DNA of 43,926 nt, taken from Candidatus Gastranaerophilales bacterium (GTDB taxonomy: Bacteria; Cyanobacteriota; Vampirovibrionia; Gastranaerophilales; Gastranaerophilaceae). The notes below the pieces were generated by a model, which worked only from the letters and a program-made list of their open reading frames with translations, had not been told where the DNA came from and made no database searches. A program made the translations under genes and the position numbers. Every line of letters begins with the position of its first letter. The stretch's first letter is position 1. This document shows positions 27,096 to 43,926 of this stretch, piece by piece. The stretch lies in the NCBI GenBank assembly GCA_947588745.1, contig CANPYW010000017.1:1-43926 (forward strand), written 5' to 3'.

Positions 27096-28931
27096 TTAAA
27101 TACATACTTTTTTGCTGTTTTCGACTTCTTTAATCCATTCGGTCATTATCACATTTGCGTCATAAGGTCCTGCGGTTAATTCGGGGTGGAACTGAACTGT
27201 TTTTATATTATATTTCGGATAGCACATACCCTCGACCGTTTTATCGTTCAAATTTATATATATGACTTCGGCATCTTTAGGCAGTGTTGATTCATCAACA
27301 GCATAGTTGTGATTTTGAGAAGTCATATATATTTCTTTTGTTTTAACGTTCATAACAGGGTGATTACCGCCTCTGTGACCGTATTTCAGCTTAAACGTTT
27401 TTGCTCCGACCGCAATGGATAATATTTGGTGACCTAAGCATATTCCGTACAATTTAATTTTACCCAAAAGATTTTTTGCCGTTTCTATCGCCTGCAATGC
27501 ATCTTCCGGATTACCGGGGCCATTTGATATTAAAACGGCATCAAAATTTCCGCTTAATATTTCATCGGCTTTAACATCTGCGGGGAATATTGTGATATCG
27601 CAATTTAAACTTTTTAAATTATCAACAATACTCTTTTTTATCCCCATGTCAATTATTGCAAGCTTTATTCCCGTTCCGAAATATCTTTCGGTTTTATATG
27701 CGGTTACTTCAAGCGTTATATCTTTACTTATTTTATAGTCTTTCATTTTTTGTTTTATTTCGGAGGTAATGTCACCTGTTGTTATTGCACAATTCATCGC
27801 TCCGCAATTTCTTATAATTTGAGTAAGATACCTCGTATCAACTCCTTTTAAACCGACAATATTGTTTTGTTTTAAATAATCGCCCAATGATACGCTGCTT
27901 TTATAATGTGATTCGTTCTCACACAAGTTTTTTACAACAAAACCTTTCGCATATATTCTTCCGCTCTCGTTATCATCTTTATTTATGCCGTAATTTCCTA
28001 TTTCGGGATACGTCATAACTATTGCCTGTCCCGCATAAGAAGGGTCGGTTAATATTTCCTGATATCCGACCATTGAAGTATTAAACACGATTTCTCCGTA
28101 TGCGGTTCCGTCTGCACCGATGGATTCACCCTCAAATATCATTCCGTTTTCAAGCAGCAGTTTGCCTTTTGATACAGCATAAGATTTATTTTGAGTTAAC
28201 AGTGCATTTTCTATCTCGTCATAAATCATTTTTATTGCTTTTACTCTATCTTCGGCATTTGTAACCGCACGTCCGATTACAAGATAATCAGCCCCCTCTT
28301 TTACGGCAACACCCGGGGTCGCAAGCCGTTTCTGGTCGTTTTTATCTGCCCAATCGGGTCTTATTCCCGGACACAATACCTTAAAATCTTTTCCGCATGC
28401 CTGTTTTATTTTCCTTGCTTCCCACACGCTCGCAACAACACCGTCCAATCCCGCTTTTTTGGCGGTTACCGCAAGATGAAGTGCATAATCGTTAGGTTTG
28501 TATGGAACTTTTAGTTCGTTTTGCAAAATTTCTTCGCTAATACTTGTTAAAACGGTAACTCCCAATATGGTCGGATTTTCTTTCCCCTGAGCTTTTGCGG
28601 CACTTCTTGCGGCTTCAACGGCTCTTTTCATCATTTCTTCGCCGCCCGTCGTATGCAGATTAAAAAATGAAGCTCCGTTTCGAACGATATTTTCTGCCGC
28701 TTTTGCCACCGTATTGGGAATATCGTGCAATTTTACGTCAAAGAAAAATTTAATATTTTGTTCTTTCATAAAATTAAATATTTCATATCCGTTTCCCGTA
28801 TACATTTGCAGACCGACTTTAAATACGCCCACATAATCTTTCAGCTCGGTAATCAATGATTTTGCCTGTTCCACACTGTCCACATCAAGTGCAAGCACTA
28901 TTTTTTCTTTTATTTCAGGTTTTATTTGCAT
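27096..28931 (-). CDS. pyrF-carA: fused OMP decarboxylase (PyrF) and carbamoyl-phosphate synthase small subunit (CarA)
   Basis: 611 residues in one frame. Residues 1-242 are a complete OMP decarboxylase: LALDVDS, FKVG, FFDVKLHDIPNT with the catalytic Asp-Lys-x-x-Asp (D65, K67, D70) and VIGRAVTNA. After a linker of about 10 residues, 253-611 are a complete CarA: N-terminal domain (LLLENGMIFEGESIG, NTSMVGYQEILTDPSY) and a class I glutaminase with ISNGPGNP, nucleophile C498 in YGICLGHQI, and H582/E584 in VQFHPE. The first half performs the last step to UMP and the second supplies ammonia to CarB for the first step. Both parts keep normal length and key residues, so this is a functional fusion rather than a sequencing artefact in appearance. 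It sits between pyrC and carB. Confidence 0.93.
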   Translation of the reverse strand: MQIKPEIKEKIVLALDVDSVEQAKSLITELKDYVGVFKVGLQMYTGNGYEIFNFMKEQNIKFFFDVKLHDIPNTVAKAAENIVRNGASFFNLHTTGGEEMMKRAVEAARSAAKAQGKENPTILGVTVLTSISEEILQNELKVPYKPNDYALHLAVTAKKAGLDGVVASVWEARKIKQACGKDFKVLCPGIRPDWADKNDQKRLATPGVAVKEGADYLVIGRAVTNAEDRVKAIKMIYDEIENALLTQNKSYAVSKGKLLLENGMIFEGESIGADGTAYGEIVFNTSMVGYQEILTDPSYAGQAIVMTYPEIGNYGINKDDNESGRIYAKGFVVKNLCENESHYKSSVSLGDYLKQNNIVGLKGVDTRYLTQIIRNCGAMNCAITTGDITSEIKQKMKDYKISKDITLEVTAYKTERYFGTGIKLAIIDMGIKKSIVDNLKSLNCDITIFPADVKADEILSGNFDAVLISNGPGNPEDALQAIETAKNLLGKIKLYGICLGHQILSIAVGAKTFKLKYGHRGGNHPVMNVKTKEIYMTSQNHNYAVDESTLPKDAEVIYINLNDKTVEGMCYPKYNIKTVQFHPELTAGPYDANVIMTEWIKEVENSKKVCI

Positions 28932-31701: not shown

Positions 31702-32622
31702 TTATCTCCTCAATTCTTTTTTCATTTCGTCCAAATCTTTAAATCCGTTTTTTACGACGTAATTTTCAAGCTCCTTTACAAGTTTTAAAGCCGTATCGGG
31801 ATATGTAAAATTAGCCGTACCTATTTGAACGGCCTGAGCTCCAGCCGCAAAAAATTCAATCACATCATCAATATCTTCTATTCCGCCAATGCCGATTATC
31901 GGTATATTCACCGTATTATACAACCTTAATACGGCATTTACGGCTACGGGTTTTATTCCTCTGCCCGAATATCCCCCCTGAACCATTGTTTTTACAAACT
32001 TTCCGTTTATACAATTTACTTTTAAGGAAGTTCCTTTTAATGTATTTATTGCACTTATTGCATCTGCACCCGCTTTTTCCGCTGCGGCACCCGTTTTTTC
32101 TATAGATGTAACATTCGGTGTCAATTTAACCGCCAAAAAGCCTTTGTATACTTCTCTAACGCTTTTAACAAGGTCATATAGCACATTTTCATCAACCCCG
32201 AATTCCAAACAGCCCGATTTTACGTTAGGGCAAGACACATTCATCTCTATAGCCTTTATATTATTCGTTTGACAAATTGTTGCAAGTCGAACGTACTCAT
32301 CAAATGACGAACCTGCAATATTCATGATATATTCGATGTTTTTTGATTTTAAAACGGGAGATTTTGTTTCCAAAAACTTTTCAATACCCACATTTTCAAG
32401 CCCTATGGAATTTATCATGCCTGCTTTTGTTTCGGTTATTCTGTTATGTTCGTTACCCTCACGAGGATTTAAAGATATTGCTTTTGTAACGATTGCACCC
32501 AATTGCGAAACATCAATAAAATCGTCATATTCATCCGTATAGCCGTAAGTACCCGATGCTGTCATTATGGGATTTTTCAATTTCAGTCCGTTTAAATTTA
32601 CATCCAAAATACCCATTACCAA
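31702..32622 (-). CDS. pyrD: dihydroorotate dehydrogenase, class 1B catalytic subunit
   Basis: 306 residues. LKNPIMTASGTYGY at the start, EMNVSCPNVK with the catalytic Cys of class 1, AVKLTPNVTS and GIGGIEDIDD for FMN binding. Class 1B enzymes pair with PyrK to pass electrons to NAD, and pyrK is directly upstream (7-base overlap). The first Met is followed by a second two codons later (MVMGIL); either may be used. Confidence 0.95.
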   Translation of the reverse strand: MVMGILDVNLNGLKLKNPIMTASGTYGYTDEYDDFIDVSQLGAIVTKAISLNPREGNEHNRITETKAGMINSIGLENVGIEKFLETKSPVLKSKNIEYIMNIAGSSFDEYVRLATICQTNNIKAIEMNVSCPNVKSGCLEFGVDENVLYDLVKSVREVYKGFLAVKLTPNVTSIEKTGAAAEKAGADAISAINTLKGTSLKVNCINGKFVKTMVQGGYSGRGIKPVAVNAVLRLYNTVNIPIIGIGGIEDIDDVIEFFAAGAQAVQIGTANFTYPDTALKLVKELENYVVKNGFKDLDEMKKELRR

Positions 32623-34240: not shown

Positions 34241-35362
34241 TTAAACGCCCACTGCATGTTTAAGCCAATCACGTGCTTCTTTTTGAAGTTTTTTAAGTAT
34301 TACATAAACTTTTTCATAATCAATTTCATTTTTTAAAATGGGAGATAAACATCCATCGGCAACATATCTGTCATTAAGCCCGAATAATTCCGTTAATATA
34401 AGTATTTTTTCGTTATTTGAAATTCTTGAAAACGCATAAAAATTTTTTTTAAATATTATCGAAAAACAAATCCCGTGATATGAATTTGTAAAAATATACT
34501 TTGCCGATTTAATCAATCCCAAATATTCTTCAATACTTATCGGTGTCGGTATTCCGTCAAAAAATTTTTTGTAATTTTTATCAAAACAATTTACGATTTT
34601 AATTTTCAGATTATTTTCTTTTGCAAATTTTTTGGCACGTTCAACCATTTCGGGGTTATTTTCTTTGCAATTATACACAAAAACGTAATCCTCTTTGATT
34701 TTCGGCTCTTTCACATAAGGCAGATAATCGGCTTCATCAAGCAGGAATACCGAATCAATTATAGTGCAAGCATCATCTCTTTTTAATATATCTTTTATAT
34801 AATCAAGTTTAAATATATTTCTGAATGAAATATATTTAAAATTTTTTGCATATTCAAAAAGTTGTTTTTGATTTTCCGTTTCGATAAGACCACTTCCGAA
34901 ATCAACGGAAAAGGCTATATTATCTTTGCCTTTCATGTGGGGATAATCACACATGAATGCTCTGTCGTAATATTTCCCCCCCCCCACAAGACGACACCAC
35001 GTTATATCTGTTTCACAACAGTATAACTCTGCCATATCTTCCATATCAGAAATTGTATCTCTGTTATATATATTTTCACTTACAACACAATGCTTTTTAA
35101 AAAATTTATCAAACTTTAACTGTTTAATAAATCTAAAAAACAGCATAAAAAAACACAATGGGAAATGTCTGAAGAACAGCCTGCTATCGAATTTAAAATA
35201 AAATCGTCGATATCTTATTATTACACTTGATATGCCAATTCCATTTAAATACTTTTGAAAAGCAAATGAATGAAGTGCAGCACCAAAATTGGAATTAATA
35301 GTATGCGTATTAAATGATATTATTCCAACCTTATATTTTGTTTCGGATTTTGATTTATCCAT
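34241..35362 (-). CDS. polysaccharide pyruvyl transferase family protein with a 10-G tract
   Basis: 373 residues of the PF04230 family: N-terminal ISFNTHTINSNFGAALHSFAFQ, middle ETDITW in place of the common SDQVW motif, and C-terminal ISIEEYLGLIKSAKYIFTNSYHGICFSIIF with YxFxR after it. Members add ketal pyruvate or, more loosely, act in surface glycan synthesis. Codons 126-129 (V-G-G-G) are made of a run of 10 G at 34976-34985. One base lost or gained gives a stop within 15 codons and a protein of about 140 residues, so the gene is an on/off switch candidate; this copy is on. It is the last gene of the glycan operon, 128 bases after the previous one. Confidence 0.83.
   Translation of the reverse strand: MDKSKSETKYKVGIISFNTHTINSNFGAALHSFAFQKYLNGIGISSVIIRYRRFYFKFDSRLFFRHFPLCFFMLFFRFIKQLKFDKFFKKHCVVSENIYNRDTISDMEDMAELYCCETDITWCRLVGGGKYYDRAFMCDYPHMKGKDNIAFSVDFGSGLIETENQKQLFEYAKNFKYISFRNIFKLDYIKDILKRDDACTIIDSVFLLDEADYLPYVKEPKIKEDYVFVYNCKENNPEMVERAKKFAKENNLKIKIVNCFDKNYKKFFDGIPTPISIEEYLGLIKSAKYIFTNSYHGICFSIIFKKNFYAFSRISNNEKILILTELFGLNDRYVADGCLSPILKNEIDYEKVYVILKKLQKEARDWLKHAVGV
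34976..34985 (-). repeat. G(10) tract inside pyruvyl transferase gene, phase-variation site
   Basis: Ten G on the coding strand at codons 126-129. Slippage by one base either way shifts the frame to an early stop. Confidence 0.8.
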
Positions 35363-35490
35363 ACATTACTCCTTTTCAAAATGTTTTATCTTGTTCATAT
35401 TATCTCGCATTTAACCGATTATTTCAGTTTCCGCAAAAAATACACCCTTGCAAAATACGTGAAATCACTGCATAATCAATATCAATTATT

Positions 35491-36678
35491 TTACGGGGGG
35501 GGGGATTTTTCAGACAACAATTCTTTATATTTGTTTATTTTTTTGAGCTTATTTGAATAATGTTCCTTTTTATAGAATTTAGAAAGTAGCAAATATAAAT
35601 AATACATACCGTATATGGAAAAATAAGACAACTCCGGTTCTAATTTAAACTCTGAAGCTGTTCCGTGTCTTAATTTAGGTTTTTTGGAATGTTTTAAAAC
35701 ATATTTTAAATCTTTTTTCGAGCCGCAGTATAAACATTTTCTTAAATTTTCATAATTATATTTATTCAATTCCGCAAATTTTGCCAAAGCATTTTCTTCT
35801 TTACCGATTAAAGAGTCGGGATTATTATATCCCGTAAATTTTTCGCAGGTATCAATAAGTCTTTCACGCATAGGAAGATAAACGGACGGATTTTTTAACG
35901 GATTTTCAAAATCATATACATCTCCGTTTATTATCTGTTCATTGGTATAAGAATTAAAAAAGTTTTCATACCCCGAATACCTTGAAATCTCGCCCATTTC
36001 TTTTTCGTTTGAAATTATTCTCAAAACAGGTGTTTCCAAAGCCAAAGACGGCAATATGACATGCAATCTTGATGATACGACCAAATGAGCTTTTGAGTAT
36101 AAAAGAAGCTGTAATTTAGCGTATTCAAGCCTTTGAAGTGCAGAATAATAAGGCGAAATCATTCTGCTTATGGCAATTACGGGGCGATTTGTCCGTTTTT
36201 TAATCGATTGAATCAATTCTTCCGAAGTATCAACGCATAATATATAATTATCCCGCATTATATTTTCGTTTCTTTTCAATGTTAAAGTCAAACATCCGGA
36301 GAAATAAGAAGGAATGTTTTCACTCTCGAGCCATTTATAAGTTGCAACATCCCTGCAACCTACAGGACCGAATTTTGTTAAATATTCTTTGACTTTTTTT
36401 GTTAAGAACTCTTTTCGTATATTAGGTCTAACATACATTGCAATTAATAAAGGTTCAATAAACTTTGAAGGCGGGAAATGTTTACAGTTCCACATCCACC
36501 ACGCATTCAGAATGCATTTTGTTTTTCTGCCGGTTTCGGGATAAAAATGACTTATAAGTTCTCTGTAAACATATTCATCAATCTTCGGCAAAAATCTCAT
36601 TGCGGCGATACTTTGAATTTCATCGCCTATATTTACCGAATTATACACCAACACACCGTATGAATAATCATTATTCAC
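35491..36678 (-). CDS. polysaccharide pyruvyl transferase family protein ending in a 10-C tract
   Basis: 395 residues of the PF04230 type: NSVNIGDEIQSIAAMRFLP at the start, a central GCRDVATYKWLE motif, and LLLYSKAHLVVSSRLHVILPSLALETPVLRI at the family's His-containing motif. The final residues SPPP and the stop are set by 10 C at 35495-35504 followed by GTAA. With 9 C the stop is bypassed and 23 further residues (RKIIDIDYAV...CIFCGN) are added; with 11 C the end becomes PPPVK. So the tract chooses the C-terminus rather than switching the gene off. The start overlaps the previous gene by 8 bases. Confidence 0.82.
   Translation of the reverse strand: MNNDYSYGVLVYNSVNIGDEIQSIAAMRFLPKIDEYVYRELISHFYPETGRKTKCILNAWWMWNCKHFPPSKFIEPLLIAMYVRPNIRKEFLTKKVKEYLTKFGPVGCRDVATYKWLESENIPSYFSGCLTLTLKRNENIMRDNYILCVDTSEELIQSIKKRTNRPVIAISRMISPYYSALQRLEYAKLQLLLYSKAHLVVSSRLHVILPSLALETPVLRIISNEKEMGEISRYSGYENFFNSYTNEQIINGDVYDFENPLKNPSVYLPMRERLIDTCEKFTGYNNPDSLIGKEENALAKFAELNKYNYENLRKCLYCGSKKDLKYVLKHSKKPKLRHGTASEFKLEPELSYFSIYGMYYLYLLLSKFYKKEHYSNKLKKINKYKELLSEKSPPP
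35495..35504 (-). repeat. C(10) tract at the stop codon of the second pyruvyl transferase gene
   Basis: Ten C on the coding strand directly before G-TAA. Frame changes by slippage alter the end of the protein: immediate stop with 10, 23 more residues with 9, 2 more with 11. Confidence 0.8.
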
Positions 36679-37840
36679 TGTTTAAACTCCTTATGAATTT
36701 CTCCAAACCCTCTCGTGTCTTTTGTTTCAAGCTATCAATTTTTTCATACGGGGGGGGGGAATTTTTACATTCAATAATAGCATTTTCCAACCTATCTACT
36801 ATCAACTTTGCATTATCCAAATCCTTGTGTTCTATAAATCTTTCGGGGTGACCTATCATTTGACCGAACAGCTTTAATTTATTATTCCAAACAAAACCTA
36901 TAGAAGGGATTGAATAAGAAGCTGCTATTATATTAGCATGAAGTCTTGCGGCTATAATTGCTTTATATCCCGTTATAATTTTAACAAATTCTTTAGGAGC
37001 AGACGGACGAGGTTTCAAATATTTTTCGGTATCTTTTATATTAAGTTTTTCCAAAACACTCAAAGCGAAATCATAGTCGCTGAAAGTTCCGTTTGCAAAC
37101 ATTTGCCATTTATAATTACGATTTTCGAGTTCTTTTATAACATTAACATAAGCTTCTTTTAAGCGTTCTTCGGAATAATCCATGCAGTAATCGGTGAATA
37201 TTTTTCCTCTAATTACGCCTACACCTATTACATCACTTTGTTTTTCGTTAAGATTTCCATAAGTTTCTTTTGAATATAAAGCACTATCACCAACCAATGA
37301 TATTTTAGACTTATCTTTAATATATTTTTCCAAACTTTCCATATCATCTCTTGTGGTTATGAACTTTATGCAATCTTCATTCAAAGCCTTTTCCAAAAAT
37401 TTTGAACTTGCATTATTTTTATCATACCCTTCAACGCCAACGGCATTAAAATAAACGGGGATATTATGTTTTTTGCAATATTTTGTTATTGCATAAACGG
37501 GATAAAAAAAGCTTTGAGTGGTATATTTTATCAACCCGCCGCCAACAAAAACCACACACGATACATCTTTTAAATTTTCATCATAATACGATTTAATATT
37601 ATTTTTATTTACATGCAAATACAGTTTAAATCTTAAATGCTTAAATCTCTGCTTCCAATTAGGGACATTAAGTGTATTTGTAATCTTTATTCTTGATGAA
37701 AAACCATTTTTTGGGAATATCGAAACCACTTTGATTTTAAAATCAGAAGCTATTTTTTCTATAATATATTTAGTAGTATCACAAATAACGGCATCGCCTA
37801 AATTATTATCCTGAATTGCAATCAGAGCAATTGTTTTCAT
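36671..37840 (-). CDS. polysaccharide pyruvyl transferase family protein with a 10-C tract near the 3' end
   Basis: 389 residues of the PF04230 family: IAIQDNNLGDAVICDTT at the start, CVVFVGGGLIKYTT as the GGG motif, FITTRDDMESLEKYI, and YKAIIAARLHANIIAASYSIPSIGFVW with the family His. The N-terminal half differs from the two other copies, so these are not recent duplicates. A run of 10 C at 36750-36759 encodes SPPP about 26 residues from the end. Loss or gain of one C ends the protein after 3-10 further codons, removing about 25 residues, and moves its stop some 60-80 bases away from the next gene's start, which it now overlaps by 8 bases. Confidence 0.83.
   Translation of the reverse strand: MKTIALIAIQDNNLGDAVICDTTKYIIEKIASDFKIKVVSIFPKNGFSSRIKITNTLNVPNWKQRFKHLRFKLYLHVNKNNIKSYYDENLKDVSCVVFVGGGLIKYTTQSFFYPVYAITKYCKKHNIPVYFNAVGVEGYDKNNASSKFLEKALNEDCIKFITTRDDMESLEKYIKDKSKISLVGDSALYSKETYGNLNEKQSDVIGVGVIRGKIFTDYCMDYSEERLKEAYVNVIKELENRNYKWQMFANGTFSDYDFALSVLEKLNIKDTEKYLKPRPSAPKEFVKIITGYKAIIAARLHANIIAASYSIPSIGFVWNNKLKLFGQMIGHPERFIEHKDLDNAKLIVDRLENAIIECKNSPPPYEKIDSLKQKTREGLEKFIRSLNSE
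36750..36759 (-). repeat. C(10) tract near the end of the third pyruvyl transferase gene
   Basis: Ten C on the coding strand. A change of one base truncates the last 25 or so residues and separates the stop from the start of the downstream gene. Confidence 0.8.
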
Positions 37841-37844
37841 TCGG

Positions 37845-39161
37845 TTATCCTTCTTTCTTTATATTCAGCATATTTTCAATATACTTCCTGATATAAGACT
37901 TAACTCCACCTTCCGGCTGTTTTAACGTATTTTTTATTATATCAAGTCTTGTATTCAATAATACATCATCTTTCATGTTCAAAGCCAGTTCAAGTTCTTC
38001 TATATTATGCACTTTATAATATCCCGATGTAATCTTGCGTCCGAACTCGTTATGACCTATAGAATGCTCGGATATTAAATGAATTACGGGTTTTTCCGTA
38101 GGCAAATATTCATATAAAAATGAATTACAATCGGTAATCAGCATATCGGAGGTTCTAAACATATCAAAATAATTGCCTTTGTCATATATTTGACAGTTAG
38201 GAAGCTCTTCCCACTTTTTAAAATATTCGTTCATCTCATCATAAGTCATAAGCCCGTTTTTTACTATCTGGCATTTTAATTCGGGATGTGGCTTTAAAAT
38301 AAACTCTATTTCCTGATGTTTTTCAGCATAATCTAAGAAGAATTTATAATTCCAATCAAACGTGCCAAAGCCGAGCATTGAGCCTTTATAAAACGAATGA
38401 TGAGGTGCATAAATTACCCGCTTTTTGCCTGAAGTTTTCCACACTATATTTTCTTTATTTAATGGTTTTAAATAAGCATCGAGCTTTACCTGACCCGCAA
38501 ATTCCAAATTTACATCAATCACGCCTTTTTGCCGCATTGTTTTTATAATTTCTTCATTATCCATAAAATATGTATATAGTTCGTTAAAAAACGGTTTGCA
38601 ATACTCGTTTTCTCCGTTCGTTATGCAAGAGCCATAGCTGCAGTACAAACAAACAGCATAGTTTGAGGTTCTGTATATAGAATGAATTTCGGGCAATTCC
38701 CAGGGCTGCTCGTAAAAAATAATATCAGGATTAAATCCGCTTAAATCTTTATATTGCTTTTTTTCAATATCAAAAGCATAATCAGTATTAAATCCGTTTT
38801 CTTTAAAATAATCATAATTATCTTTTAATATTTTGGGATAATCCATATATGAATACCTTTTTTTCAATAAATATTCACTAACGGATACCAAAACTTTTAA
38901 ATTAAATTTATCATTTTTTGAAAGCACTTCGTATATATCTTGATAGCACCACTTTGAATTATCATTTGCCAAAAAAATTATATTTATTTTATCGGTTTTT
39001 ACTTTTTCCCGCAATCTTTTTATGGTTTCCGGATATCTGGCATGTATTTCGGCACAATGCCTTTTTGCGTCAAGATTTCTGCAAAACTCTCTAAATTCGC
39101 CTCTTGTTTTTTTATCGGGAAACATCCAGCTTGTTAACATTGATATGGTTGTACAATTCAC
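37845..39161 (-). CDS. CDP-glycerol glycerophosphotransferase-like protein
   Basis: 438 residues without membrane segments. The C-terminal half shows the order of motifs of the PF04464 (TagB/TagF) family: KKRVIYAPHHSFYKGS, EFILKPHPELK, and FRTSDMLITDCNSFLYEYLPTEKPVIHL. Relatives transfer glycerol phosphate, or another polyol or sugar phosphate, to a glycan; here a capsule or LPS decoration is likely. The N-terminal 100 residues are less conserved. It lies 4 bases before the next gene and overlaps the GT2 gene by 4 bases. Confidence 0.8.
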   Translation of the reverse strand: MNCTTISMLTSWMFPDKKTRGEFREFCRNLDAKRHCAEIHARYPETIKRLREKVKTDKINIIFLANDNSKWCYQDIYEVLSKNDKFNLKVLVSVSEYLLKKRYSYMDYPKILKDNYDYFKENGFNTDYAFDIEKKQYKDLSGFNPDIIFYEQPWELPEIHSIYRTSNYAVCLYCSYGSCITNGENEYCKPFFNELYTYFMDNEEIIKTMRQKGVIDVNLEFAGQVKLDAYLKPLNKENIVWKTSGKKRVIYAPHHSFYKGSMLGFGTFDWNYKFFLDYAEKHQEIEFILKPHPELKCQIVKNGLMTYDEMNEYFKKWEELPNCQIYDKGNYFDMFRTSDMLITDCNSFLYEYLPTEKPVIHLISEHSIGHNEFGRKITSGYYKVHNIEELELALNMKDDVLLNTRLDIIKNTLKQPEGGVKSYIRKYIENMLNIKKEG

Positions 39162-40198
39162 TGTTTTTCTCCGTTATTTCTCGGTTTAATACGGAATTTA
39201 ATTCCCAATACAGTTATTACCTTATATTTGACGGCATTTTTTCTTTCATTTTTTAAAGACAATATAGTTTCAAAAAACGAATTTCCGTTTGATGTGCGAA
39301 TTAAAAATTTTATATATTCACGTTTTGTTAATATTTCTTTGGCACACTTTTTATACTTTTTTCTTTGGCCTTGAGATATATTTTGATAATGACGAGAGAT
39401 AACATCTATTTTATATTTAGAAAAAGATGATTTTAATTTTTTATATATCCCTTTCCACTCAAGCAGCATTATTATTCTATGCAGATTTTCAAATATACAA
39501 AAATTATCATCCGATATGCTGTTACAAGATGAGTTATTTCTCAATCTGTAATTGTAAAGATAATCTTCCAAATAGTATATTTTATCTGAATTTATAAACA
39601 CCTGTGTCGAAAATACATCATCTTCACCGTTTTTATTATTGGGGAATTTTATTTCATACTTATCCAAAAACGATTTTCTGTAAGCTTTTGTCCACACTGT
39701 AAACTTTGAATACTTAAATCCGCAGCCAAAAACATCCTCCCAGTTATATGACTCGTAATTTTTCAGATTATAATTAAATTTCTTATTCAAAAAATCCGCA
39801 AAATTATTTATAACGTATTCTCCGGTATTCTCCGTATATTCCCTGTAATTAAACTGGATTACATCTCCATTGTTTTTTTCAAAAAAACTATATATTTTTT
39901 CAAAAGCATTCTGTTCCATCCAATCATCAGGGTCAACAAATAAAATATACTCGCCTGATGAAGCTTCCAACCCCGCATTTCTCGCACTGCCCTGACCTTT
40001 ATTCTCCTGCGTAATTACCTTAAAACGAAAATCTCTTTGCGAATACTCCTTTAATATTTCTCCGCAATTATCGGGCGAACCATCATTAATACAAATAAAC
40101 TCAACATCCTTAAAGCTTTGATTTACCAAACTATCCAGACATTGCCTTAAATAAACTTCAACATTATATATAGGTATAATTACTGAAATTTTTGCCAT
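39158..40198 (-). CDS. glycosyltransferase family 2
   Basis: 346 residues. The GT-A fold starts MAKISVIIPIYNVEVYLRQC, with CINDGSPDN, RNAGLEASSGEYILFVDPDDW (the DxD equivalent being DPDD) and WTKAYRKSFL. The C-terminal ITVLGIKFRIKP tail is common in capsule and LPS transferases of gut bacteria. It is the first gene of the leftward glycan operon. No clear ribosome site or promoter stands before it, though a TATGATAAC-like -10 is present. Confidence 0.9.
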   Translation of the reverse strand: MAKISVIIPIYNVEVYLRQCLDSLVNQSFKDVEFICINDGSPDNCGEILKEYSQRDFRFKVITQENKGQGSARNAGLEASSGEYILFVDPDDWMEQNAFEKIYSFFEKNNGDVIQFNYREYTENTGEYVINNFADFLNKKFNYNLKNYESYNWEDVFGCGFKYSKFTVWTKAYRKSFLDKYEIKFPNNKNGEDDVFSTQVFINSDKIYYLEDYLYNYRLRNNSSCNSISDDNFCIFENLHRIIMLLEWKGIYKKLKSSFSKYKIDVISRHYQNISQGQRKKYKKCAKEILTKREYIKFLIRTSNGNSFFETILSLKNERKNAVKYKVITVLGIKFRIKPRNNGEKQ

Positions 40199-40325: not shown

Positions 40326-43300
40326 TTATCCATTTTGTTTTGTCCAAGCACTTTCGCCGTTGAAAAGTTTAAGCATTTCATCTCTAGCTTCACCGCCGGC
40401 ATGTTTCATTACATCATTAACGTCTTTGTATCCGTTTTTAGCAAGCCAACCTGCAACATCTTGTTTTACTTTATCAAAGTTGTATGTATAATCGTCGCTT
40501 TTATCACTATTACCACCATTTGCAACGAATTTTTCAATACCCGTTAATGTTGCACTATCATCAGAGTCTAAATCTTCAACATTAACAGCACCGGATACTT
40601 TACCGCTTTTGCTAACATTAAACCAAACTTGTATTTTGTCTTTAGATTTATTAAATTCAGCAGTATCTGAGCCTGTTTTACCTGTATCTTTTACGGTTGA
40701 AGTTTCAACGCTGTATTCAGGTCTTGTTGTGCTTTCAAACAAGCAGTATGTATCGCTTCCGTTTCCGCCGTCCAATGAATTTTTACCAAATCCACCATGG
40801 ATAACATCATCGCCGTTTCCGCCTTTGATTGTATCATTATAATGTGAACCATATATCGTATCGTTGCCGGAACCCGCATTTATGCTTGCACCTTTTGACT
40901 TTTTAATAACTACATCCGTTGCATTTAATGCACGTGCATCAATTTCTTCGGAGAACCAACTGCCTGTATAGCTGTATTCCTTTGCTGTAAAGTCTTTATA
41001 AGTAGCCAGGAATTTATCATTTCTAAGGTCATAAGCTTTTTGATCACCAACATACAATTCAACCGAACCTGATGAAGTAGTTACATCACTTTTACCAAAA
41101 TCCTTTATGGTTATTGTGCTTGTTGTGCCGTCTTCATTTGTATAGCTTATTAAAAGGTTTTTACCCGATATTTGATACGATAATTCTTCTTTGTTTGTGA
41201 AGCCCGTAAGTTTTAAATCGAGATTTTCACCTTTTGAAAGAACAATAACATCATTGCCGTCGCCTTTTTTGTATTCAAATACGTTATTTCCTGAACCGCC
41301 GTTTATAGTATCATTACCTATACCGCCATTTATAGTATCGTTTCCGGCACCGCCTTTTATTGAATCATTCAGTTGACCGCCTACAATAGAGTCATTAATT
41401 GATGAACCTGTTATTTTATTATTTTTATCTTCTTTACCTTCAAAATATATTGTAGCTTCTTTTAAATCCAAATCAGCTTTACTTTTTGATTTTAAAGTAA
41501 ATGAATTTTTGGACTTAAAGAAATCTTTTATAGTAATCATACTATTATCAGGGTCTACATTATCACCTTTTTTGGCGAAATTAATAATTAAATCGTTACC
41601 CGATTTTGTATAGCTGTATTTATTAGCACCGTCAACAATACCTTTTTCATCAAAAGATAAATCTGTATTACTAAAGTCTAATGTAGTTGAACCGCTTCCG
41701 GTTACATAAATTGTATCTTGTCCAAATGTAGCACTCTCATACTTATATGTATTATTGCCTGATTCACCATACAATTTATCGTTACCTAAGCCGCCAATTA
41801 ATACATCATCACCTTTGCCGGCTTTAATAGTATCATTACCAAGTCCACCGGTAATAGTATCATTGCCGCTTGAACCCGTTAATGTATCATAGCCTTCTCC
41901 ACCGGTAATTGTACCACTACCCTTAATTTTTTTACTTGGATTTTTACTTACTTCTTCATTAACTTTACTTAAAGAATTTTTTAAATACCATTTTTCACCA
42001 TTTTTAAATTCAACATAGTCAACAGAAACTTTGCCTTTTTTCTTAAAGTAATCAGCAATCGTAATTGAAGCACCAGTCTTTTTATCGTAGTAAATTACAA
42101 GGCTATTTCCGCTTCTTACAAGTTCAACAGCAGATTTTTCTATGCTTTTAAGTTCAATAATATCTTTACCGGAACCGGAATAAATTGTATCACTACCGCT
42201 TAAAGCGTTTTCATCGTATCTTATAATGTTATTTCCGGACTCACCATATATTTTATCATTGCCGAATGAAGATATTATTACATCATCACCGCTTCCGCCT
42301 TTTAATACATCATTGCCGTTACCGCCTGATAATGTATCATTGCCGGAACCGCCGGATAATGTATCATTGTGATTACCGCCAACCATTGAATCTCTGAATT
42401 TAGTACCGCTGATTTTATTTGTGTTATTTTTATCAATATAATTTTCGTATTCAATAAAGGTTTTTTCCAATATGTCTTTTACGAAAGCCCATTTATCGCC
42501 ATCGTTAACGGATACTCTGCCTGATTCAGCATCTGTTGTAGCCTTTATTATATATTCTATAGAACTATATAATCCCTTTTTAAAGTAATCTTGAATGGTT
42601 ACAGTACCTTTTCCTGTTGAAATTACAAGGCTTCCGTTTTTATTCATATAATGGAAATTTTTTAAAGGATTTTCATCTTTTTGTAAGAAATCGTTAAACT
42701 GAAGTGAATCTTTTCCTGAACCGGGGATGATTACATCATTACTTTTATCTTCTACTTCAGCAGAATACTGCCCGTATACATAATCTTGACCGTCTTCAGT
42801 TTCAGGTGTTGTTTCCATAGTGAATGTTTTAATGGAGGTTTTATCTTCACCTTCACCATATTCTTGAGTTGTATATTTTAAATCTTCAGGATCAGGATTT
42901 ACTGTTAATGTTTCTTTAGCGTTAAAAATATACATATCATTGCCGCTTCCACCATACAATGTATCATCGCCTAAGCCGCCAATTAATGTATCATTGTCGC
43001 TATCACCGTATAATTTATCATCACCGGCTTCACCATACAATACATCGTTACCGTTACCGCCTTTGATAGTATTTTTTGCATAGTTACCATATAATACGTT
43101 CTTTGCATTATTACCTATCAAATTTAAGTTATCAGCCCACGACTTAATATTTGATTCCGTAACAACTAACGACCCAACTTGGTCGGTAGCATCACCTTTG
43201 CTTTTTGCATAGTTTGTACCGGTTAAGAAATCATATAATCTTTGGATTGATATGAATTGAGCACCTTCAATATTACCTAAGAAACCGCCTGTATCAATTA

Positions 43301-43926
43301 CATAAAAACCTATAATATCATTAGCTGATAATTCCTGGTCTTTATATTCGTGTCCTTCAATTTCTAATGTAGTTTGATTTTCGTGTTTTTCGCCACCTTC
43401 ATCAAACCATTCGTGTGTAACATCCTGAGTAGATTTTGTAACATCTCCTCTTACAACACCAACAATGGTTATAGCATGCTGCCCGCCAGAACCGCCGCTA
43501 AATCCGTTTGCTTGACCGCCTACGATAATACCACGACCTTCGCCAATCCATTTTTCAAATTGCTGTGCAAAAGTATACAAATATTCATTTAATACATTCT
43601 TTGATTCTACTACGGTTTTTTTATCTAGGAATGAATCACCTACTACAGTATCTTGTTGACCTTCTTCGTGTACAACTTCTTCTACAGTAACGGTAGTAGT
43701 TTTTGTTGTGGTTGTATGTGTTTCATTTGTTTCTGTTACTATTGTAGTCGTTGTACGTTTATATATATCTTTACCATCTTCATTTTTCTTACCTGTGTTT
43801 TCGTATGTAATGGTAGACTCACCTTGTTCTACTATAGGGGCATCTTCTTTAATCATTTGATTAAATTTATAAAGACCGGCATCGGCTTTTACCCCCATTG
43901 CTCTTAATATGTTTTCTTGCTGCCAA
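40326..43926 (-). CDS. large RTX-type calcium-binding secreted protein, N-terminus cut by right edge
   Basis: At least 1199 codons; the frame stays open through the ATG at 43898 to the window end (WQQENILRAMGVK), so the true start is outside. Residue numbers count from that ATG. A Thr/Glu-rich linker (about 25-80) is followed by a domain with GQHAITIVGVV and NDIIGFYVIDTGG, which resembles the His and Asp half of papain-like or C39-like peptidases. Then come five blocks of GGxGxDxLx nonapeptides (about 266-323, 499-569, 663-721, 829-876, 1006-1053), separated by modules with TITIxDFFKxx that resemble haemolysin-type calcium-binding-related domains. RTX repeats bind calcium after export, usually by a type I system, so this is likely a secreted surface or extracellular protein. 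No exporter is in the window. Confidence 0.88.
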   Translation of the reverse strand, partial: WQQENILRAMGVKADAGLYKFNQMIKEDAPIVEQGESTITYENTGKKNEDGKDIYKRTTTTIVTETNETHTTTTKTTTVTVEEVVHEEGQQDTVVGDSFLDKKTVVESKNVLNEYLYTFAQQFEKWIGEGRGIIVGGQANGFSGGSGGQHAITIVGVVRGDVTKSTQDVTHEWFDEGGEKHENQTTLEIEGHEYKDQELSANDIIGFYVIDTGGFLGNIEGAQFISIQRLYDFLTGTNYAKSKGDATDQVGSLVVTESNIKSWADNLNLIGNNAKNVLYGNYAKNTIKGGNGNDVLYGEAGDDKLYGDSDNDTLIGGLGDDTLYGGSGNDMYIFNAKETLTVNPDPEDLKYTTQEYGEGEDKTSIKTFTMETTPETEDGQDYVYGQYSAEVEDKSNDVIIPGSGKDSLQFNDFLQKDENPLKNFHYMNKNGSLVISTGKGTVTIQDYFKKGLYSSIEYIIKATTDAESGRVSVNDGDKWAFVKDILEKTFIEYENYIDKNNTNKISGTKFRDSMVGGNHNDTLSGGSGNDTLSGGNGNDVLKGGSGDDVIISSFGNDKIYGESGNNIIRYDENALSGSDTIYSGSGKDIIELKSIEKSAVELVRSGNSLVIYYDKKTGASITIADYFKKKGKVSVDYVEFKNGEKWYLKNSLSKVNEEVSKNPSKKIKGSGTITGGEGYDTLTGSSGNDTITGGLGNDTIKAGKGDDVLIGGLGNDKLYGESGNNTYKYESATFGQDTIYVTGSGSTTLDFSNTDLSFDEKGIVDGANKYSYTKSGNDLIINFAKKGDNVDPDNSMITIKDFFKSKNSFTLKSKSKADLDLKEATIYFEGKEDKNNKITGSSINDSIVGGQLNDSIKGGAGNDTINGGIGNDTINGGSGNNVFEYKKGDGNDVIVLSKGENLDLKLTGFTNKEELSYQISGKNLLISYTNEDGTTSTITIKDFGKSDVTTSSGSVELYVGDQKAYDLRNDKFLATYKDFTAKEYSYTGSWFSEEIDARALNATDVVIKKSKGASINAGSGNDTIYGSHYNDTIKGGNGDDVIHGGFGKNSLDGGNGSDTYCLFESTTRPEYSVETSTVKDTGKTGSDTAEFNKSKDKIQVWFNVSKSGKVSGAVNVEDLDSDDSATLTGIEKFVANGGNSDKSDDYTYNFDKVKQDVAGWLAKNGYKDVNDVMKHAGGEARDEMLKLFNGESAWTKQNG

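Follow-up and report, generated by a model that had tools for sequence, protein, structure and literature searches.

Why do three consecutive genes in a stretch of DNA with a G+C content of 32% each carry an uninterrupted run of ten G or C? The question is raised by contig 17 of a draft genome of a Candidatus Gastranaerophilales bacterium (G000; 1,998,657 bases in 63 contigs, 94% complete). The assignment agrees with its dihydroorotase, whose 34 closest relatives from named genomes, at 70-79% identity, belong for the most part to metagenome-assembled genomes of this order. This contig of 43,926 bases was analysed as a whole and is called the window below. The three genes belong to the polysaccharide pyruvyl transferase family (PF04230), and the initial annotation had placed one 10-base run, or tract, in each of them, at 34976-34985, 35495-35504 and 36750-36759; both coordinates and lengths proved exact. 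We give a probability of about 0.82 to the reading that these tracts are members of a larger set of pure G/C runs of 8-10 bases found throughout the genome, situated in or near the start of surface genes, which undergo phase variation by slipped-strand mispairing. The genes and their tracts are as follows.

36671..37840, minus strand: gene 1, PF04230, 389 amino acids, in frame as found, 102.7 bits against a cut-off of 25.3
35491..36678, minus strand: gene 2, PF04230, 395 amino acids, in frame as found, 54.7 bits against a cut-off of 25.3
34241..35362, minus strand: gene 3, PF04230, 373 amino acids, in frame as found, 86.8 bits against a cut-off of 25.3
36750..36759, minus strand: gene 1 tract, codons 361-364, coding-strand C10 (plus-strand G10)
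35495..35504, minus strand: gene 2 tract, final codons, coding-strand C10 (plus-strand G10)
34976..34985, minus strand: gene 3 tract, codons 126-129, within a variable loop, coding-strand G10 (plus-strand C10)

The three genes are family members by the curated cut-off, and pyruvyl transfer is their predicted activity; for genes 3 and 1, no solved structure was matched by sequence at E 0.01. The longest other G/C run in the window is indeed 6 bases, the only one of that length being C6 at 31973-31978, within an open reading frame (31702-32622) that had been annotated as pyrD.

Run length and reading frame at the window locus

To see what a change in length does to each gene, the tract lengths were altered in silico and the resulting reading frames were translated. 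At 34976, lengths of 8, 9, 11 and 12 yield products of 137-143 amino acids instead of the 373 obtained at length 10, and the truncation removes most of the PF04230 domain (residues 25-313), which makes this tract a clean candidate on/off switch of gene 3. The same changes at 36750 cost gene 1 between 18 and 25 of its 389 residues at the C-terminus, behind the domain (residues 13-320), so this tract is a possible C-terminal trimmer. At 35495 the stop codon of gene 2 directly follows the run, and lengths of 7-13 give 394-418 residues (396-418 instead of 395 at lengths 8, 9, 11 and 12); only the tail is altered, and the tract is near-neutral and no on/off switch. The single good ortholog of gene 2 that was found in the genus, in genome G003 (48% identity), is free of the tract and ends at the same point. 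Since only 34976 is a clear switch, while 36750 possibly trims and 35495 is near-neutral, the locus would have two to four states, and not the eight from three switches that had been proposed.

In the proposed mechanism, slipped-strand mispairing while the DNA is copied would lengthen or shorten a run by one base, and the frame would shift as a result, taking the gene from whole to truncated and back. One pyruvyl-transferase-family enzyme would be switched on and off by run 34976, a second would be shortened at the C-terminus by run 36750, and the third would hardly change with run 35495. The rate and reversibility of such switching, as well as its effect on the cell surface, we infer from sequence. 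Gene 2 begins before gene 1 has ended, but since it has its own AGGAG in front, coupling between the two genes is not claimed.

The initial annotation had also raised the case in which a conserved stretch of amino acids, and not the run as such, is maintained. For 34976, 19 homologous loci were given to an alignment and 14 aligned across the tract, some of them weakly; none has a G run there and no GGG is conserved, while an SDQVW-like motif lies in or just before the tract position in 10 of the 14. A conserved VGGG motif as the reason for this tract was therefore dropped, the tract being situated in a variable loop. A gene 1 paralog in contig 15 (41% identical) has a C-terminal tract too, but it consists of G instead of C, and the alignment puts it about 18 residues from the tract of gene 1. 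No second copy of any of the three window tracts was found.

Genes 1 to 3 stand behind two tract-free genes of the same cluster, all of them on the minus strand:

37845..39161, minus strand: glycerophosphotransferase-like gene (Glyphos_transf, PF04464)
39158..40198, minus strand: family 2 glycosyltransferase (PF00535)

Upstream of the glycan genes and on the same strand, 40326-43898 encodes a protein of 1190 residues with RTX calcium-binding repeats (PF00353, nine stretches). Elsewhere in the window, a single open reading frame on the minus strand (27096-28931) fuses orotidine-5'-phosphate decarboxylase with the small chain of carbamoyl-phosphate synthase (PF00215, PF00988, PF00117).

A genome-wide set of runs and its length differences

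A search of the whole genome for G/C runs of at least 8 bases, as the initial annotation had advised, gave 29 runs in G000: four of 8, twelve of 9 and thirteen of 10 bases, none longer. Under Markov models of orders 1-3, trained on 210,537 bases of G000 (the window and the tract regions, with tracts masked) and not on the whole genome, 0.33-1.06 runs of at least 9 bases would be expected where 25 are observed, and 0.05-0.21 runs of at least 10 where 13 are observed.

The 29 tracts were placed by hand. Ten are in frame with a gene (34976, 36750, three in L041, L036, L043, two in L048, and L045 at 10167), the gene start of L036 being uncertain; in eight, the gene is interrupted or its upstream start is in another frame (L032, L033, L037, L038, L039, L042, L047, L049); and one, 35495, affects a tail only. 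The remaining ten are taken up below. The automatic table departs from this count in giving L033, L036, L038 and L039 as '?', L040 as 'ON?', and L046 and 35495 as 'OFF'. Families found under the tracts are PF04230 (four), TupA-like ATP-grasp proteins (four), an AlgX-like protein (one) and a pilin-like protein (one). In a fusion of IspD, epimerase and Glyphos_transf two tracts lie between the domains, and in a methyltransferase the tract splits the gene inside the domain match. Further tract genes encode large proteins whose starts resemble signal peptides by eye, and several tract genes have no Pfam match. Elsewhere, in this genome and in the family, TupA-like, AlgX-like, methyltransferase, large secreted-type and type IV pilin-like genes may be under the same kind of control.

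In contig 31 of G000, three C9 runs within 73 bases (L044:4746-4818) lie in a GA/CT-rich stretch upstream of a DUF520 gene and look like another kind of repeat. In front of large secreted-type proteins of G000 (L050), G030 (L201, L203) and G029 (L276 at 1002), a G9 run stands a few bases before a possible TTG start; at this ribosome-binding-site position, run length might tune translation instead of the frame. Viral contigs searched for host fragments with two of the tract patterns gave no match to either.

Length differences between related genes show how the frame depends on the run. Two tandem paralogs of G029, 93.4% identical over 3,050 nucleotides, differ by one C in their tracts: with C9 the frame runs through, with 94 codons before the tract and 888 behind it, and with C10 it is broken soon behind the tract, 884 codons staying open in another frame. 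Four AlgX-like genes stand in tandem in G030, and all have a tract at the same position (C9 broken, C9 open, C10 undecided and C9 broken); there the AlgX-like homolog of G000 has C10 and an open frame. The leader MKKIKPV precedes C8 (broken) and C9 (open) in G000 and C9 (open) in G030, where a further relative of these loci has a different leader and a broken C9.

Comparison of the TupA-like genes with other species points the same way. By means of a motif, 12 of 30 fetched loci could be placed, one of which is the G000 gene itself. Among the 11 from other species, nine have no run of at least 6 bases nearby and have an in-frame ATG; two have a run, in one case in frame and in the other upstream of an in-frame ATG. 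In the tract-bearing copies of G000, the upstream ATG is out of frame in three of four, and the fourth has no upstream ATG. As a separate observation, the TupA-like ATP-grasp protein is matched 75 times in G009 and 61 times in G010, against 11 times in G000, yet these two genomes have only 8 tracts each, so that a large expansion of the family is not accompanied by tracts.

Several findings weigh against phase variation. Only one of the three window tracts, 34976, is a clean switch. The genus yielded no close ortholog of gene 1 or gene 3, and of gene 2 just the tract-free one, so that tract lengths at the window locus are not comparable between genomes. Ten of the 29 tracts of G000 are intergenic or undecided (L031, L034, L035, L040, three in L044, L045 at 1649, L046 and L050). 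Among 185 tracts of six genomes, paired by at least 60% identity over 60 nucleotides on both sides, 58 of 76 similar pairs are of equal length, although the 18 of unequal length count in favour of phase variation. Lengths within a genome are rather uniform (44 of 51 tracts in G067 are of 10 bases), and all come from consensus assemblies with one genome per species. On balance, phase variation is the best reading for the genome-wide set, which includes paralogs and orthologs with length-dependent frames, and is supported only in part for the three window genes.

Spread across the order and occurrence in pilin-like genes

Tracts of at least 9 bases were counted per genome in a genus sample of 41 genomes and in an order sample of 241 (219 of the same family and 22 of other families). 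Many relatives carry tens of tracts in glycan genes, surface-protein genes and, in some species, type IV pilin-like genes. Within the genus, 24 of 41 genomes have at least 15 tracts and 15 have at most 5, the maximum being 119 (G017). Across the family, raw counts range from 0 to 176 (G084), and the 22 genomes of other families have 0-6 tracts each, again as raw counts without adjustment for base composition. Two genomes call for caution: G007 has a run of 32 at a contig end (contig 108, positions 1-32) and G008 has long, barely interrupted runs (contig 60, from 4305). These are probably in part sequencing or assembly artefacts, and the tract counts of both genomes may be inflated.

The share of tracts that stand before a prepilin motif differs widely. 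In G067, a member of another genus, all 51 tracts were fetched and 47 precede such a motif, compared with 12 of 23 sampled tracts in G017, 10 of 16 sampled in G025 (76 in all), 3 of 47 in G030, 1 of 29 in G000 and 0 of 16 sampled in G029. From these genomes and two named loci we assembled 73 tract-bearing pilin leaders with a ribosome-binding-like site and an ATG, many of them related copies and not independent events; three tract pilins without such a leader were dropped. The leader is out of frame with the pilin in 67 of 73 and in frame in six, and in 63 the in-frame length class excludes both 9 and 10, the commonest lengths. No ATG, GTG or TTG occurs in the pilin frame before the motif in 25 of the 67 out-of-frame leaders, while 40 have an in-frame start without a ribosome-binding-like site and two have one with it; some pilins may thus be made from another start. 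By eye, later ATGs of this kind in G067 often have a TATAAT-like box in front.

Representative tract pilins matched TIGR02532 over the cut-off in five of five cases, and PF07963 over the cut-off in three and below it in one, the fifth not being listed. Another family matched by some tract pilins, PF20318, has exactly one match in 24 of 41 genus genomes, and 34, 9 and 7 matches in G017, G025 and G008, respectively. Four of the 30 PF20318 loci fetched have a tract before the motif (in G008, G025, G038 and G017). Of the other 26 loci 22 could be placed; none of these has a run of at least 7 bases within 200 nucleotides upstream, and all have an in-frame start codon. An in-frame TTG lies 9-20 codons before the motif in 21 of these 22 pilins (L278-L306) and an in-frame ATG in three, and they may start with TTG.

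Many pilin leaders of G067 (L120-L139 and L170-L196; for example L128 round 1502) share a DNA motif, some 30 bases long, that encloses the run (TTC-G10-CA, with AGCTT behind), and in L130, L138 and L139 at 1500 much the same motif occurs in the opposite orientation, still within a leader. The run is preceded by C in 48 of 51 cases. Its orientation is one-sided over long stretches, with 19 of 21 runs forward on contig 1, nine forward up to 210 kb and then six reverse on contig 2, and 12 of 13 reverse on contig 3; this probably follows gene direction. A chromosome-polarity element of the Chi or KOPS kind, considered because of the orientation and the preceding C, was set aside, as 47 of the 51 runs lie in pilin leaders.

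We tentatively propose, at somewhat less than even odds, that these gut bacteria of the order Gastranaerophilales hold a very large switching repertoire driven by homopolymers, with as many as 176 tracts in one of the genomes sampled. In several species it would act chiefly on expanded families of type IV pilin-like genes. The short leader of most expanded pilins would contain a G/C run, and neither of the two lengths that occur most often would bring the gene into frame. At any one time, only a few pilins would then be displayed in a population and dozens more kept back, while another pilin, which has no tract, remains switched on.

For the pilins, the chief competing explanation is programmed slippage in transcription or translation, where the run is fixed in the DNA and the polymerase or ribosome slips on it, giving a constant share of full-length product. 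The predominance of out-of-frame leaders in the assemblies is what slippage-dependent genes would show, and the uniform lengths within a genome fit as well. Many tract genes, however, including genes 1 and 3, are in frame as found, and paralogs differ in the length of the tract in the DNA. Moreover, most leaders have G10 in G067 and C9 in G025, yet they share one in-frame length class, so that different shifts would be needed, which argues against a built-in shift of fixed direction. We consider slippage improbable.

Still less probable is that the broken genes are simply decaying, with the tracts as indel-prone remnants that have no switching role. The intergenic or unclear tracts of G000 and the small effect of the gene 2 tract would suit such decay, but in broken copies a long frame stays open past the tract (880 amino acids in G029 and 436 in G030), homologs of different species have tracts at matching positions, and the excess of tracts over expectation is about 25-fold or greater. 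A sequencing or assembly artefact is very unlikely. The genomes are draft metagenome assemblies, and the run of 32 in G007 looks like such an error; the runs of G000, however, are internal to contigs and are made of G in some cases and of C in others on the coding strand, runs stand at homologous places in separately assembled genomes, and few occur in the sampled genomes of other families. Least credible of all is a general mutator state in which loss of mismatch repair lets homopolymers grow: although G017, at the genus maximum, has no MutL match and G023 (43 tracts) has none over the cut-off, MutS_I was found in 235 of the 241 order-sample genomes and MutL over the cut-off in 37 of the 41 genus genomes, G000 included in both, and the other two genomes without MutL over the cut-off, G002 and G006, hold just 1 and 2 tracts, so that such a loss as the cause of the tracts is not supported.

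Relation to known switching systems and biological meaning

A 2025 review describes how Campylobacter, Neisseria and other bacteria switch surface genes by homopolymer tracts (PMC11868660). The poly-G/C loci of Campylobacter resemble those described here in having G/C homopolymers in and between genes, in affecting glycan and surface genes, and in their many loci per genome (PMC8355987, PMC3068675). The present bacteria belong to another phylum and are uncultured gut organisms. Campylobacter is not known to possess MutS/MutL mismatch repair, whereas G000 has MutS and MutL matches, and pilin leaders hold the majority of tracts in some relatives. Few of the vlhA genes of Mycoplasma gallisepticum are on at a time. 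The vlhA genes are described, similarly, as a large paralogous family of surface proteins with a variable repeat in front, although the repeats there are GAA repeats near promoters (PMC6258824) and here a G/C run stands between start codon and prepilin motif. The simple-repeat repertoire of Neisseria meningitidis likewise affects surface-related genes, with candidate loci that number in the tens per genome, and its candidates are reported to have been tested by deep sequencing (PMC5084427), whereas our comparison covers consensus assemblies and G/C homopolymers only.

The initial annotation had known of no description for this type of organism, and none was found in one open-access library (preprints lay outside the scope), where nothing paired the Gastranaerophilales lineage with phase variation, repeats or pilins. 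One article contains both 'Melainabacteria' and 'phase variation', in unrelated places of the passages retrieved (PMC7018530). The class of mechanism is already known, and its probable occurrence at the window locus in this lineage would be new; the pilin pattern may be a variant of homopolymer switching not described so far.

In this uncultured animal-gut lineage related to cyanobacteria, tract-rich genomes stand beside relatives with none, a contrast that allows one to ask whether host immunity, phages or competition drives the gain and loss of the repertoire. If our reading is correct, consensus assemblies would not reveal the sugars and pili present on a given cell, and some genes that appear frameshifted in assemblies would be intact but switched off.

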